Made by a program: the position numbers and the translations under genes
Origin: Roseibaca sp. Y0-43
Lineage (GTDB): Bacteria; Pseudomonadota; Alphaproteobacteria; Rhodobacterales; Rhodobacteraceae
DNA length: 64,000 bases
NCBI RefSeq assembly: GCF_020667835.1
Contig: NZ_JAFMPR010000002.1
Coordinates: 124,001-188,000 of the forward strand
Direction of reading: 5' to 3'
Shown here: positions 13,125 through 56,154 of the stretch, piece by piece
Position numbering within the stretch: the stretch's first letter is position 1
How the letters are laid out: the number at the start of each line of letters is the position of its first letter
The notes under the pieces: generated by a model
The model's database searches: none
Told to the model about the DNA's origin: nothing
The model's input: only the letters and a program-made list of their open reading frames with translations

Positions 13125-13214
13125 AAAAAGGCAAGCCCGACACGCTGCCCCGCGATCACGAAATGCGGAAGTGCACACCCTTGCATCACGCGCGCACCGC
13201 GCTTACATCTGAGG

Positions 13215-13520
13215 TGTCTCGCAAGGGACTATGGGCATAAACGCGCTCGGAATAAGCGGATCGGACCCGGGGGCGGTACCCGGCGGCTCCACCAATATCC
13301 TTCATTTGGGGATTCTGGGGCCGAAACAGGATCGACGAACGTGTAAAGGGGTTAGCTTTGCCTCGGTGAGCCACCACCGTTATCGGTGCAAAACGTACAG
13401 TTGCAAATGACAACCGTGCTCCGGTCGCAGTCGCAGCGTAAGCTGTCACAAGACCGAAACTTAAGCCCTTGCGCCTAGCAGCGTAAGGCGGGGTTCGCAG
13501 GCACCTGGCAACAGAAGCCT
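13215..13520 (+). ncRNA. ssrA: Two-piece (circularly permuted) tmRNA
   Basis: tmRNA rescues stalled ribosomes and adds a degradation tag. The acceptor piece comes first and ends in GGCTCCACCA at 13294. The coding piece starts at 13317 with GGGGCCGAAACAGG. Their ends pair as an alanyl acceptor stem (GGGGCCG with CGGCTCC) that keeps the G3-U70 wobble read by alanyl-tRNA synthetase. About 22 bases between them (13295-13316) would be removed. The tag frame at 13403-13441 encodes ANDNRAPVAVAA and a stop. This permuted order is characteristic of alphaproteobacteria. The outer 5' and 3' limits are estimates. Confidence 0.95.
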
Positions 13521-13621
13521 GCACTTTCCTCCTGCATTTTCTGCTGCAGTCGCACAGCGCCCCTTTCAATCGGGTCACAGTTGGGTATGGTGGGCGCAGA
13601 AGGATTGAAGGGCGAACCAGT

Positions 13622-27377: not shown

Positions 27378-29468
27378 ATGGCCGCGCGGCCCGAAGTGCT
27401 GTTCCCGCTCTTCGGCGCGCTCGACGGGCTGGACGGGATCGGCCCGAAAACCGCGCGCAATTTCGAAGCGCTGGACATTGCCACGCCGCGCGACCTGTTG
27501 TTTCACTTGCCGCATGGCGTGATCGACCGGCGCAGGCGCAACAGCTTGCGCGGGCTGGATTTTCCAGCGGTTGCCACGGTCGAGGTGGTGGTCGGCGCGC
27601 ATCATGCGCCGCGGGCGCGCGGGCGGCCTTACCGGGTGTTCGTGCAAGATGCCGAGATGGAATTTCAGCTCGTGTTCTTCCACGCGCGCGGCGAGTATCT
27701 GCAAAAGCTGCTGCCAACCGGGCAGCGCCGGGTGGTGTCGGGCAAGGTCGAGTTGTTCGACGGGATCGCGCAGATGGTCCATCCCGACCACGTTCTGCGC
27801 CCCGACGAGGCATCGGACCTGCCGGAGTTCGAGCCCGTTCATGCGCTGACCGCAGGCGTTAGCCAAAAGCTGATGGCGCGCGCGATTGGCGGCGCGTTGC
27901 AGCGTGTGCCCGCGCTGGAAGAATGGATCGACCCGGCGCTGAAGGCGCAGAAAGGCTGGCCCGATTGGGCCGAGGCCGTGCGCCGCGCGCAAGCGCCGCA
28001 CGCGCTGGCCGATCTGGCGCTAGTGGCCCCGGCGCGGGCGCGGCTGGCCTATGACGAGGTGTTTGCGCATCAACTGACGCTCGCGCTTGCGCGGGCGCGA
28101 GCGCGGCGCAAACCGGGGCGCGTGACCCAAGGATCTGGTCGCTTGCAAGCGCGCGTTCTGGACAGTCTGCCCTATGCGCCGACCGGCGCGCAGACCCGCG
28201 CGCTGGCCGAGATTTCGGCCGATATGGCCAGCCCCCGCCGCATGAACCGCCTGTTGCAAGGCGATGTGGGCGCGGGCAAGACGCTGGTTGCGATGCTCGC
28301 GCTGCTGATCGCGGTAGAGGCAGGCGGGCAGGGTGTGTTGATGGCACCGACGGAAATTCTGGCGCGGCAACATCTAGAAAGCCTGACCCCCTTGGCGCAA
28401 GCGGCGGGCGTGCGGCTGGAGTTGCTGGCGGGCCGCGACAAGGGGGCGGAGCGGGCGCAGAAACTGGTCGATCTGGCCGAGGGACGCATCGACATCCTGG
28501 TCGGCACCCATGCGGTGTTCCAGAAAGGCGTCGATTTCGCCGATCTGCGGCTGGCCGTGGTCGATGAACAGCACCGTTTCGGCGTCGCCCAACGCGCGGC
28601 CCTTGCGGCCAAGGGCGAGGGGGCGGATGTGCTGGTCATGACCGCCACGCCCATCCCGCGCTCGCTCGCCTTGGCGCAATATGGCGATATGGACGTGTCG
28701 GTGCTGGACGAAAAGCCGCCCGGCCGCAAACCGATCACGACCGCGCTGGTGTCGTCTGCCCGGCTGGACGAGGTGGTGGCGAAATTGCGCCACGCCATCG
28801 CCGAGGGTCGGCAAGCCTATTGGGTCTGCCCGCTGGTCGAGGACAGCGAGGTCAGCACGCTGACCGCCGCCCAGACCCGGTTCGAGCATCTGCGCGCGGC
28901 CTTTGGCGACGGCATGGTCGGGCTGGTGCATGGGCAACTGCCCCCTGCAGAGAAAGACGCCGCCATGTCCGATTTCGCAGCGGGCCGCACGCAGCTTCTG
29001 GTCGCCACCACGGTCATAGAGGTGGGCGTGAACGTGCCCAATGCCACGATCATGGTGATCGAGCGCGCCGAAAGCTTTGGCCTTGCGCAGTTGCACCAGC
29101 TTCGGGGCCGTGTCGGGCGCGGGGCCGATGCCTCTACCTGCCTGCTGATCTACGAGCCGCCTTTGGGCGAAACCGCCGCGCGCCGCCTGAAGCTGCTGCG
29201 CGACAGCGAGGACGGCTTTCGCATAGCCGAGGAAGACATGGCCATTCGCGGCGCGGGCGACCTGATCGGCACCGCGCAATCAGGCCTGCCGCGCTTTCGC
29301 GTGGCCGACCTAGAACGTCAGGCCGCGCTGATGGCGCTGGCGCAAACCGACGCGCGCAAATTGCTGTCCGACGACCCAGAGCTGACCAGCCCGCGCGGGC
29401 GCGCCGCGCGCGTGGCGCTGTGGCTGATGGAGCAGGACAAGGCGATTCAATACCTCTCGATCGGCTAA
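27378..29468 (+). CDS. recG: ATP-dependent DNA helicase RecG
   Basis: The 696-residue helicase remodels stalled forks and Holliday junctions. It has the N-terminal wedge/OB domain (about 1-160), then helicase motif I GDVGAGKT (from residue 295), motif II DEQH at 396-399 (DEQHRFGVAQR), motif III MTATPIPRS, and motifs IV-VI with VGRGADASTC. The C-terminal RecG segment RIAEEDMAIRGAGDLIGTAQSG is present. The true ATG is at 27378, two bases after ligA, although the frame is open much further into ligA. A LexA-type operator begins two bases after its stop. Confidence 0.96.
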   Translation: MAARPEVLFPLFGALDGLDGIGPKTARNFEALDIATPRDLLFHLPHGVIDRRRRNSLRGLDFPAVATVEVVVGAHHAPRARGRPYRVFVQDAEMEFQLVFFHARGEYLQKLLPTGQRRVVSGKVELFDGIAQMVHPDHVLRPDEASDLPEFEPVHALTAGVSQKLMARAIGGALQRVPALEEWIDPALKAQKGWPDWAEAVRRAQAPHALADLALVAPARARLAYDEVFAHQLTLALARARARRKPGRVTQGSGRLQARVLDSLPYAPTGAQTRALAEISADMASPRRMNRLLQGDVGAGKTLVAMLALLIAVEAGGQGVLMAPTEILARQHLESLTPLAQAAGVRLELLAGRDKGAERAQKLVDLAEGRIDILVGTHAVFQKGVDFADLRLAVVDEQHRFGVAQRAALAAKGEGADVLVMTATPIPRSLALAQYGDMDVSVLDEKPPGRKPITTALVSSARLDEVVAKLRHAIAEGRQAYWVCPLVEDSEVSTLTAAQTRFEHLRAAFGDGMVGLVHGQLPPAEKDAAMSDFAAGRTQLLVATTVIEVGVNVPNATIMVIERAESFGLAQLHQLRGRVGRGADASTCLLIYEPPLGETAARRLKLLRDSEDGFRIAEEDMAIRGAGDLIGTAQSGLPRFRVADLERQAALMALAQTDARKLLSDDPELTSPRGRAARVALWLMEQDKAIQYLSIG

Positions 29469-29469
29469 T

Positions 29470-29484
29470 GTTCCAAATTTGTTC
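29470..29484 (+). promoter_or_regulatory. Alphaproteobacterial SOS box (LexA site) and promoter
   Basis: GTTCCAAATTTGTTC fits the alphaproteobacterial LexA consensus GTTC-N7-GTTC exactly. A -35 like TTGACT follows directly (29485-29490). A second, near-consensus element in the opposite sense, GAACAAATGTGAAC (29498-29511, spacing six), lies where the -10 would be. Together they would make a tightly repressed, DNA-damage-inducible promoter for the small gene at 29542. Confidence 0.8.
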
Positions 29485-29541
29485 TTGACTATATGCAGAA
29501 CAAATGTGAACATTCAGTTAACAGAGCAAAGGAGGTTGCCC

Positions 29542-29655
29542 ATGTCATCGCTTCGAAGCAAAGCCGGCCGGATCATGTTCTTGCAGGATTTGTGCGGCAG
29601 TGTCGCGCTTGTGGTGCTGATGGTTGCCGCCTTTTATCTGCCGCTCTTTGCCTGA
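29542..29655 (+). CDS. 37-residue single-pass membrane protein under SOS control
   Basis: This short gene is easy to miss. ATG at 29542 is preceded by a perfect AAAGGAGG (29528-29535) with suitable spacing. The product begins MSSLRSKAGRIMFLQDLCG and ends in a hydrophobic run VALVVLMVAAFYLPLFA (about residues 20-37), so it should sit in the inner membrane with its basic N-terminus inside. A consensus SOS box and promoter lie upstream and an intrinsic terminator lies 38 bases downstream, making a complete single-gene unit. Caulobacter SidA (29 residues, membrane, SOS-induced division inhibitor) is a functional parallel. I cannot claim sequence homology. The role is inferred. Confidence 0.75.
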   Translation: MSSLRSKAGRIMFLQDLCGSVALVVLMVAAFYLPLFA

Positions 29656-29692
29656 GCTTGCGGGCTTGCCGGCCCGTGCCTGACCTGACTTT

Positions 29693-29729
29693 CGCCGCCA
29701 TGCGCCCCCACGCATGTGCGGCGTTTTTT
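29693..29729 (+). terminator. Intrinsic terminator after the SOS microprotein
   Basis: CGCCGCCATGCG (29693-29704) pairs with CGCATG-T-GCGGCG (29711-29723) with one bulged T, followed by TTTTTT (29724-29729). It closes the SOS transcription unit before trmFO. Confidence 0.85.
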
Positions 29730-29794
29730 CATGTGGGCATTTGCCAAACCGCCGGGGCGCGGTTATCTGGGGCGAAACGCGAAAGGGGAAGTGC

Positions 29795-31150
29795 ATGGAC
29801 AAGGTTCTGAACATTGTCGGCGGCGGCATGGCTGGGTCAGAGGCCGCGTGGCAAGCCGCGAATATGGGCATTGACGTGGTCATCCACGAAATGCGCCCCA
29901 AGGTCGGCACCTTTGCGCACCAGACCCAGAACCTTGCGGAAATGGTGTGTTCCAACTCTTTCCGCTCGGATGATGATGAGAATAACGCTGTGGGCCTGCT
30001 GCACTGGGAAATGCGCGCGGCGGGCGGGCTTATCATGGAAATGGCCGATGCCCATGCGCTGCCCGCGGGCGGCGCGTTGGCCGTGGACCGCGACGCGTTT
30101 TCCGCAGCCGTCACCGAGCGTTTGCTGGCGCATCCGCGCATCTCGGTGGCGCGCGAAGAAATCACGGCGCTGCCCGATCAGGGCCAGTGGATCATCGCGA
30201 CCGGGCCGTTGACCTCCAGCGCCTTGGGGCAGGCCATCGCCGCAGAGACGGGGGCCGAGGCGCTCGCCTTTTTCGACGCCATCGCGCCGATTGTCTATTT
30301 CGACAGCATCGACCTGTCGAAAGCGTGGTTCCAGTCCCGCTATGACAAGGGCGAGACCGAGGAAGAACGCAAGGCCTATCTGAACTGCCCGATGGACCGC
30401 GACCAATACGAGGCCTTCATCGACGCGCTTCTGGCGGCGGAGAAAACCGAGTTCCACGAGGGCGAAACGGCGGGCTATTTCGACGGCTGCCTGCCGATCG
30501 AGGTGATGGCAGAACGCGGCCGCGAGACGCTGCGCCATGGCCCGATGAAGCCCGTGGGCCTGACCAACCCGCACGCGCCCGATGTAAAACCCTATGCCGT
30601 TGTGCAGCTGCGCCGCGACAATGCCCTGGGCACGCTTTACAACATCGTGGGCTTTCAGACCAAGATGAAGTATGGTGCGCAAACCTCTGTTTTCCGTATG
30701 ATTCCGGGGTTAGAGGATGCCAGCTTCGCGCGTCTGGGCGGCATTCACCGCAACACGTTCCTGAACTCTCCGACGCTGCTGGATGCGCAAATGCGCTTGC
30801 GCTCACGGCCGAATATCCGCTTTGCGGGTCAGATCACCGGGGTCGAGGGCTATGTCGAATCCGCGGCAATGGGCTTGCTGGCCGGGCGCATGGCCGCGGC
30901 GGAATTGTTGGGCCAGACGCTGCCGGTCGTGCCGCAAGACACCGCGATGGGCGCGCTTGTTCATCATATCACCGGCGGGGCAGAGGCTAAGACCTTCCAG
31001 CCCATGAACGTGAATTTCGGGCTGTTCCCGCCCGTGGGCGGTGTGAAAGGCGGTCGGCGCGGGCGCAAGGACCGCTACAAGGCCTATACCGACCGCGCGA
31101 AAACCGCTTGGCAGATGTGGTTGGGGCAGATGCCGGCGCAAGCGGCCTGA
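29795..31150 (+). CDS. trmFO: Folate-dependent tRNA (uracil-54-C5) methyltransferase TrmFO
   Basis: The 451-residue flavoprotein makes ribothymidine at position 54 of tRNA using methylenetetrahydrofolate and FADH2. The FAD-binding motif is [17 protein letters not shown]. The catalytic Cys regions are [12 protein letters not shown] and [14 protein letters not shown]. Others are [19 protein letters not shown] and the C-terminal [16 protein letters not shown] at 29795 follows GAAAGGGGAAG, and the open frame upstream lies in the terminator region. TrmFO replaces SAM-dependent TrmA in many Gram-positives and alphaproteobacteria. Confidence 0.96.
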
Positions 31151-31193
31151 CCTAAAGCGTTACGTCAGGAATGGCTTGCAAGGGTTTGAAACC

Positions 31194-32036
31194 ATGACAT
31201 TCCGGACTCGCTTCGCGCCATCGCCAACGGGGCCGCTGCACTTGGGTCACGCCTATTCCGCCATTCTGGCACATGACATGGCGCGCGCCGAGGGCGGCGC
31301 GTTCCTGTTGCGCATAGATGATCTGGACCAGTCCCGCGCGCGGCCCGAATGGGAAGAGCTGATCTACGAGGATTTGCGCTGGCTTGGCCTGACATGGGAC
31401 GGACCCGTGCGCCGCCAGTCCGACCATTTCGACGACTACCGCGCGGCCCTTGCGACAGTGGCGGCGCGCGGTGCGGTTTACCCCTGCCGCTGCTCGCGCG
31501 CCGATATCGACGCGGCCGCATCGGCCCCACAGGAAGGTGTGCCCACTTACGGTCCCGACGGCCGCATCTATCCCGGCACCTGCCGGGGCCGCCCTTATGC
31601 AGACCGCCGCCCCACCGACGCGCTGCGCTATGACCTGACCAAGGCCAATCTGGACGGGCCGCTCAGCTTCACCGAAACCGGCCCCGCCCATGCGGGCACC
31701 CATACGGTTACGCGCGATGAACTGCTGGCCCATGTGGGCGACCCGGTTCTGGCGCGGCCCGGCATGGCGGCGAGCTATCATTTTTCCGTCGTGCTGGATG
31801 ACGCGGCCTGTGGCATCACCCATGTCATTCGGGGCGAAGACCTGTTCGAGGCGACCTTCCTGCAAAGCTTCTTGCAACAGCAGTTGGGCCTGCCCGCACC
31901 GATCTATCACCACCACAGGCTGATCCGCGACGCGGCAGGCAAACGGCTGGCCAAACGCGACGATGCGCGCGCCATCCGCACTTACCGCGATGACGGCGCG
32001 ACGCCGCAGGACATCCGCCGCATGATCGGACTTTAA
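31194..32036 (+). CDS. gluQ: Glutamyl-queuosine tRNA(Asp) synthetase
   Basis: The 280-residue protein is a truncated GluRS that glutamylates queuosine-34 of tRNA-Asp. It has the HIGH-type RFAPSPTGPLHLGHAYSA, a KMSKS-like GKRLAKRDDARAI, and the zinc ligands typical of YadB in YPCRCSRADI plus YPGTCRGRP. There is no anticodon-binding domain, which separates it from full GluRS. ATG at 31194 begins the family N-terminus. An in-frame TTG six codons earlier is less likely. Its stop overlaps that of hisI by four bases. Confidence 0.93.
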   Translation: MTFRTRFAPSPTGPLHLGHAYSAILAHDMARAEGGAFLLRIDDLDQSRARPEWEELIYEDLRWLGLTWDGPVRRQSDHFDDYRAALATVAARGAVYPCRCSRADIDAAASAPQEGVPTYGPDGRIYPGTCRGRPYADRRPTDALRYDLTKANLDGPLSFTETGPAHAGTHTVTRDELLAHVGDPVLARPGMAASYHFSVVLDDAACGITHVIRGEDLFEATFLQSFLQQQLGLPAPIYHHHRLIRDAAGKRLAKRDDARAIRTYRDDGATPQDIRRMIGL

Positions 32037-55869: not shown

Positions 55870-55961
55870 GTCGCTTATCTGTGCCATGTGTCGCAGCTTG
55901 GCAAGTGCGCGCGAAAATGCTTGCAATCGCGACCCGCTATCCGCTACGAGGTGCGGGCAAA

Positions 55962-56118
55962 TACGGGAGACATTGGGCCATGCCCAAGGCCGAAGGAGCA
56001 ACCGCCCCGGTAAACTCTCAGGCAAAAGGACCGGTTTGCATGAACACTCTGGAGAGTGGTGCAGCCTGCCGCACCCGCCGACGGGATAACGATCTCAGGC
56101 GCAAGGACAGAGGGGGTA
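55962..56118 (+). promoter_or_regulatory. Tandem glycine riboswitch
   Basis: Two aptamers in a row precede gcvT. The first (about 55962-56036) has GGGAGA, GCCGAAGGAGCAA and AAACTCTCAGGCAAAAGGACC. The second (about 56046-56118) has CTCTGGAGAG, GCCGACGGGATAA and ATCTCAGGCGCAAGGACAGAGG. These are the conserved core strings of the class. Binding of glycine should switch on the glycine cleavage genes. Confidence 0.95.
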
Positions 56119-56154
56119 GGGCGCGGTTGTCGCGCGAACCAAAAGGGGCTTTGA

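Follow-up and report, generated by a model that had tools for sequence, protein, structure and literature searches.

A conserved small-peptide gene with two LexA-type operators behind recG in the Rhodobacteraceae, and its possible role as an SOS division inhibitor

A number of known SOS division inhibitors that do not belong to the SulA group are small membrane proteins with a single helix. SulA of Escherichia coli, whose SOS-induced division block is the role that we propose here for a different kind of protein, is a soluble inhibitor of FtsZ (PMC13396833). In Caulobacter crescentus, SidA is described as a 29-residue, SOS-induced inner-membrane inhibitor that acts on FtsW, with sidA under LexA control, and DidA as a small membrane division inhibitor acting after DNA damage that is SOS-independent and induced by DriD (PMC4211646). 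YneA of Bacillus, ChiZ of Mycobacterium and SosA of Staphylococcus are likewise SOS-induced single-helix membrane division inhibitors, YneA and ChiZ with an outer LysM domain and SosA with an extended helix; the single helix of YneA is reported to bind FtsW TM7, and AlphaFold 3 models of low confidence place SidA, SosA and ChiZ at FtsW TM7, SidA on the other side (PMC13396833). LexA-controlled single-helix inner-membrane peptides also occur among type I toxins, as in E. coli, where DinQ and TisB sit in toxin-antitoxin loci with antisense RNAs (PMC3567139) and depolarise the membrane (DinQ, PMC3567139; TisB, PMC8145889).

Here we analyse a 64,000-nucleotide stretch of the Roseibaca sp. Y0-43 genome (the window), in which a 37-codon frame with two LexA-type operators lies behind recG. 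The predicted peptide is like SidA in its putative SOS/LexA control, its size range of approximately 30–40 residues, its single helix and its alphaproteobacterial host; the target and division block of SidA were shown by experiment, whereas the peptide described here is known from sequence alone. With DidA it shares the proposed role but not the regulation, and the preliminary description of this locus was mistaken in citing DidA as an SOS-induced precedent. A search of open-licence literature retrieved no account of the gene, an earlier entry in a supplementary table being possible, and none of division arrest after DNA damage in roseobacters, Paracoccus or Rhodobacter.

The locus and its LexA-type operators

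The locus comprises the following features, in window coordinates:

27378..29468, + strand: recG, with Pfam domains RecG_wedge, DEAD, Helicase_C and RecG_dom3_C; stop codon TAA at 29466–29468; found upstream at all operator loci examined
29470..29484, + strand: LexA operator 1, GTTCCAAATTTGTTC, an exact GTTC-N7-GTTC box
29485..29490, + strand: -35 hexamer TTGACT, assigned from the sequence and from aligned relatives
29505..29513, + strand: proposed extended -10, TG-n-GAACAT, after a 17 bp spacer from the -35 hexamer
29508..29522, + strand: LexA operator 2, GAACATTCAGTTAAC, of the form GAAC-N7-YAAC, spanning the proposed -10 and the probable start site
29528..29535, + strand: Shine-Dalgarno sequence AAAGGAGG, 6 nt ahead of the ATG
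29542..29655, + strand: 37-codon ORF MSSLRSKAGRIMFLQDLCGSVALVVLMVAAFYLPLFA plus stop (ATG at 29542, codons to 29652, stop TGA at 29653–29655), with a basic N-terminus, one predicted transmembrane helix and a 3-residue tail
29693..29729, + strand: intrinsic terminator, hairpin 29693–29723 followed by T6 at 29724–29729 (-21.9 kcal/mol, z -4.8)

Operator 1 begins 2 nt past the recG stop codon and abuts the -35 hexamer; transcription probably starts near 29520. All elements named in the preliminary description are present in the sequence at 29470–29729, with one amendment. A second near-consensus operator does exist, but its conserved form is GAAC-N7-YAAC and not the GAAC-N6-GAAC originally read at 29498–29511; the first half of the latter (29498–29501) is common to some close relatives and not to the family at large, and this element was rejected as operator 2. 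A simple consensus scan of 29400–29800 found no sigma-70 promoter and missed the terminator at 29693–29729 as well. Our own terminator scan placed a terminator within 110 nt in just 7 of 109 relatives, and the terminator was therefore rejected as a general feature of the gene. Elsewhere in the window, the same strand carries an alphaproteobacterial tmRNA at 13177–13525 (Rfam RF01849, 302 bits; no ARAGORN call) and tandem glycine riboswitch aptamers at 55954–56120 (RF00504, 60 and 38 bits).

A single LexA box was rejected as evidence by itself. GTTC-N7-GTTC occurs once in the window versus a mean of 1.18 expected by chance, and the whole genome holds 79 exact sites compared with 161 for the reversed control. 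As the box alone is at chance level, conservation decides whether the locus is real. Upstream regions of 92 loci chosen by their peptide were aligned, 83 of them remaining after removal of repeats. GTTC-N7-GTTC is found within the 260 bp searched in 82 of these 83 loci, and operator 2 begins 38 bp after box 1 in 75. The conserved upstream pattern of the 75 loci with 38-bp spacing consists of TGTTCTCAAAAAGTTCTTTACA, an unconserved stretch and ATATGAGAACAAAGNGGCAACA, followed by little conservation. Operator 2 reads GAAC-N7-NAAC in these relatives, where GAAC itself was the entry condition for the alignment and N is C or T in 72 of 75. The -35 region shows TT followed by T or G in 75/75 and AC in 74/75, and in the extended -10 both the TG and the A after GAAC are present in all 75, relatives that had been chosen by peptide.

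Searched for as such, the dual-operator pattern with 38 bp spacing is present in 268 of 394 family genomes compared with 2 of 394 for the reversed control, in one copy per genome as read by eye from the list, and in 3 of 240 genomes of the class sample, all three from the window's family. A stricter version, which additionally demanded TTKAC and TGNGAACA, matched at least 117 stretches in named genomes; 80 became loci, with titles naming Ruegeria, Sulfitobacter, Roseovarius, Paracoccus, Rhodobacter and Celeribacter or broader groups. The presence of two operators on one promoter suggests tight control, which would fit a product whose untimely synthesis is harmful. Directly after recG in two diverged relatives (L283 and L286), operator 1 is a triple GTTC repeat and operator 2 a full-consensus GAAC-N7-GAAC, perhaps providing even tighter LexA control.

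The window's genome has LexA and RecA, and like boxes precede lexA (L280), recA (L278), an imuB-like gene (L275), dnaE2 (L276), a photolyase gene (L059) and mmcB (L277). These SOS genes account for 6 of 13 sites, which had been picked by eye from the 79 with a preference for A/T-rich spacers, and the other 7 were linked to no known SOS gene; boxes before SOS genes of the same genome are thus a consistency check and not a count. The photolyase box, GAACATAAGGTGAAC, lies directly ahead of its gene, and photoreactivation has been described as SOS-controlled in alphaproteobacteria (PMC3323433). The same source reports a LexA site upstream of some alphaproteobacterial recG genes, whereas the site at the peptide locus lies downstream of recG. 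Taken as a whole, LexA/SOS control of the peptide gene is strongly supported by these sequence patterns, and from established LexA biology we infer that the gene is induced in the SOS response.

Distribution in the family and linkage to recG

A single-peptide query matched 27 of 60 relatives, all of them within the window's own genus (36 genomes, the window's included), and 16 of 295 family genomes. Profiles reached considerably further. Profile A1, built from 32 rows, matches 328 of 394 family genomes and 138 of 148 genomes of an order sample, all 148 of which belong to the same family. In the class sample it matches 4 of 240 genomes, namely three family members, the window's genome among them, and one marginal case, while profile A2 (59 rows) matches 2 of 118, both family members. 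Outside the family, A1 thus gives a single marginal match in 237 class genomes and A2 gives none in 116. This match, in G537 (E 0.004; locus L124), has no recG beside it and was taken as chance. Named members carry titles of Rhodobacteraceae or of broader groups.

Counted by eye, 343 of 394 family genomes have a match to the profile or to the dual operator, the latter being found in 15 of the 66 profile-negative genomes, one of which (G376, locus L137) fits the motif poorly. From the 51 genomes with neither a profile nor a pattern match, 10 were tested and 8 have recG; 6 of these 8 retain the boxes and a diverged ORF, so that real gene loss was rejected as a general explanation of negative genomes. 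The remaining two (G076 and G113; loci L288 and L289) have a more diverged recG with no box or peptide ORF behind it, which indicates that the gene is dispensable to some members and makes these genomes a natural setting in which to see what takes the peptide's place. The peptide gene is therefore widespread in the family, not universal.

Linkage to recG was assessed at 113 operator-selected loci (30 and 3 from the family and class scans, 80 from the strict pattern; two pairs are repeats). recG lies upstream in 113/113 and a peptide ORF follows in 112/113, of which 82 were found by an automatic motif and 30 more recognised by eye; the last locus, L182, ends 63 nt past the operator. The distance from the recG stop to operator 1 has a median of 28 bp, stays within 120 bp in 107 of 113 loci and reaches 542 bp at most. 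Among loci selected by peptide, recG is present in 92 of 94. Family-wide conservation thus bears out that the peptide gene behind recG is real and carries LexA-type operators, and the frame and the SOS box, on whose conservation in relatives the preliminary description had staked its claim, are both conserved. On sequence comparison, the window locus is a conserved gene of its family. A mobile origin was rejected, since neither the relatives' peptides nor the operator pattern had a match in plasmid, phage and viral collections, where viral contigs were searched by operator pattern and BLAST with so short a peptide is insensitive.

Besides recG, the sole recurrent neighbours are two tRNA-modification genes, gluQRS and trmFO. 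Of the 54 named loci that extend 2.8 kb downstream, 44 have gluQRS, in 43 cases on the opposite strand, and 29 have trmFO, in 28 cases likewise opposite. Within the window's own genus, 25 of 27 loci have trmFO next on the same strand, compared with 0 of 67 loci outside the genus that have it there within 1.5 kb; on this ground the idea that the peptide is a leader for trmFO was rejected. These counts show a peptide gene that stands alone behind recG, usually facing the next gene. In the window, trmFO and gluQRS (29795–32036) are on the strand of the peptide gene, and they are on the opposite strand in most named relatives having them (L158–L237). As judged from gene order, trmFO and gluQRS switched strand by a local inversion around the recG-peptide pair, which itself is fixed.

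Coding evidence and anatomy of the peptide

Selection was analysed in 252 pairs of equal length and at least 60% identity, which share sequences and hence are not independent. The pooled dN/dS is approximately 0.21 and pN/pS is 0.37 in frame, compared with pN/pS values of 1.09 and 2.05 for the same pairs in two other frames. The peptide frame is under purifying selection.

Residues were counted in 111 members, the window's own locus (L155) included and L182 and the C-terminally short L192 left out. A length of 40 residues is found in 73 of 111, and members from the window's genus have a shorter N-terminus. Column conservation is highest for a Gly (111/111), an Asp (110/111), two Leu (108/111 each) and a Pro (104/111). 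Lys (81/111) and Arg (88/111) are common in the N-terminal part, whereas the stretch from Asp to Pro contains no Lys, Arg, Asp or Glu in any of the 111 members, and a His stands two places ahead of the Pro in 68. Past the Pro column, 99/111 members end in a tail of 3 residues, unlike YneA, ChiZ and SosA with their outer domains or extended helix. Hydropathy over 19 residues exceeds 1.6 in 110 of 111 members; the window peptide has a best value of 2.33, reached by one of the 110 ATG-initiated ORFs of 30–45 residues in the window, presumably the peptide ORF itself. Hydropathy and charge alone thus predict a short peptide with one transmembrane helix. The helical periodicity of conserved residues is weak (permutation p ~0.04), and the conserved helix residues argue for a specific membrane partner without naming it. 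Scanned against Pfam and NCBIfam profiles at E up to 10, each of four members gave 0 matches; of the earlier suggestion that the gene is hidden from gene callers, this is the part that was examined.

Proposed function and competing readings

We propose that the peptide is a dedicated SOS effector of the family, and our best guess, to which we give an even chance, is a SidA-like membrane division inhibitor acting on FtsW, FtsI or FtsN. For membrane insertion, partner and division block, the argument is drawn from anatomy and analogy only. In an undamaged cell, LexA would occupy both operators, one abutting the -35 and the other lying over the -10 and the start, and would thereby shut the promoter. 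Once RecA filaments bring about LexA cleavage, the promoter would fire, and from a short mRNA whose leader measures approximately 20–30 nt a single-helix inner-membrane peptide would be translated, its basic N-terminus inside and its three-residue tail outside. The helix, which is devoid of Lys, Arg, Asp and Glu, would bind a multi-pass membrane partner, most likely the late divisome proteins FtsW/FtsI/FtsN, and the peptide would keep the cell from dividing until the damage is repaired, in the manner of SidA in Caulobacter.

Besides the conservation of the gene, its operators, its place and its helix residues, and the precedents of SidA and YneA, two observations count for a SidA-like inhibitor. 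SulA (PF03846) was found in 0 of 100 family genomes, with a positive E. coli control, leaving a vacancy that a predicted single-helix membrane peptide without Pfam match, unlike the soluble, FtsZ-directed SulA, may fill. Moreover, for an SOS peptide that is encoded alone and offers no more than one conserved helix, the small-membrane-inhibitor kind is the best fit. On the other hand, any SOS-induced membrane peptide would give the same genetic pattern, and the YneA helix alone is reported not to have blocked division (PMC13396833), so that binding need not mean inhibition. The consensus scan without a promoter, the weak helical periodicity and the two recG-bearing genomes that lack the gene also count against this reading.

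The alternative that survives best is an SOS membrane peptide that regulates another inner-membrane protein, such as a transporter, a protease (e.g., FtsH), an envelope or nucleoid-membrane function or gene-transfer-agent release; we regard it as unlikely, if the most serious contender. Numerous small proteins with a single helix act as modulators of larger membrane proteins, and the conserved helix residues would suit a partner of this sort equally, none being named by them. Predicted LexA sites at gene-transfer-agent, pilus and flagella genes of Dinoroseobacter shibae point in the same direction (PMC6473078; recG goes unmentioned in the main text). However, the neighbourhood names no such partner, as the recurrent gluQRS (44/54) and trmFO (29/54) nearly all face the peptide gene.

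A peptide of the TisB/DinQ kind, which would depolarise the inner membrane, lower ATP and lead to dormancy with no divisome partner, seems improbable to us and is less likely than a SidA-like inhibitor. Its outer anatomy would be the same, with LexA control and a single helix, and membrane depolarisation is documented for both E. coli peptides. Yet these are type I toxins paired with antisense RNAs, whereas the leader predicted here is short (median 28 nt, range 7–81) and unconserved past the operators, and the helix combines near-invariant residues with the complete lack of Lys, Arg, Asp and Glu in 111/111 members. Members also sit beside recG, with no match in the plasmid, phage and viral collections, subject to the insensitivity of short-peptide BLAST.

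It is highly improbable that the locus encodes no functional protein and that what lies behind the LexA site is a leader peptide, a regulatory RNA or an ORF arisen by chance. In favour of this reading, the gene is tiny, a lone LexA box does not exceed chance and trmFO follows on the same strand in 25/27 loci of the own genus. Against it, purifying selection acts on the peptide frame only, the peptide is conserved in 328/394 genomes, and with trmFO following in 0/67 loci outside the genus and gluQRS and trmFO, where found, mostly on the opposite strand, the peptide is not the leader of any fixed gene.

Extended to the family, a SidA-like inhibitor would amount to a general SOS division checkpoint of the Rhodobacteraceae, a family-wide single-helix divisome inhibitor behind recG in hundreds of genera. 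We advance this extension tentatively, judging it slightly more apt to fail than to hold. If it is true, the peptide fills the role that SulA, YneA and SidA have elsewhere, it was missed because it is approximately 40 residues long, and a two-operator LexA promoter marks a single place in the genome. The family is in any case a conserved one that matches no Pfam or NCBIfam model, and should FtsW be the target, its natural variants would make up a large alignment from which to learn how a single helix can switch off an FtsW-type enzyme. Major marine and model bacteria are found among the roseobacters, Paracoccus and Rhodobacter, and high conservation together with a well-defined promoter makes the division question answerable in several laboratory strains.
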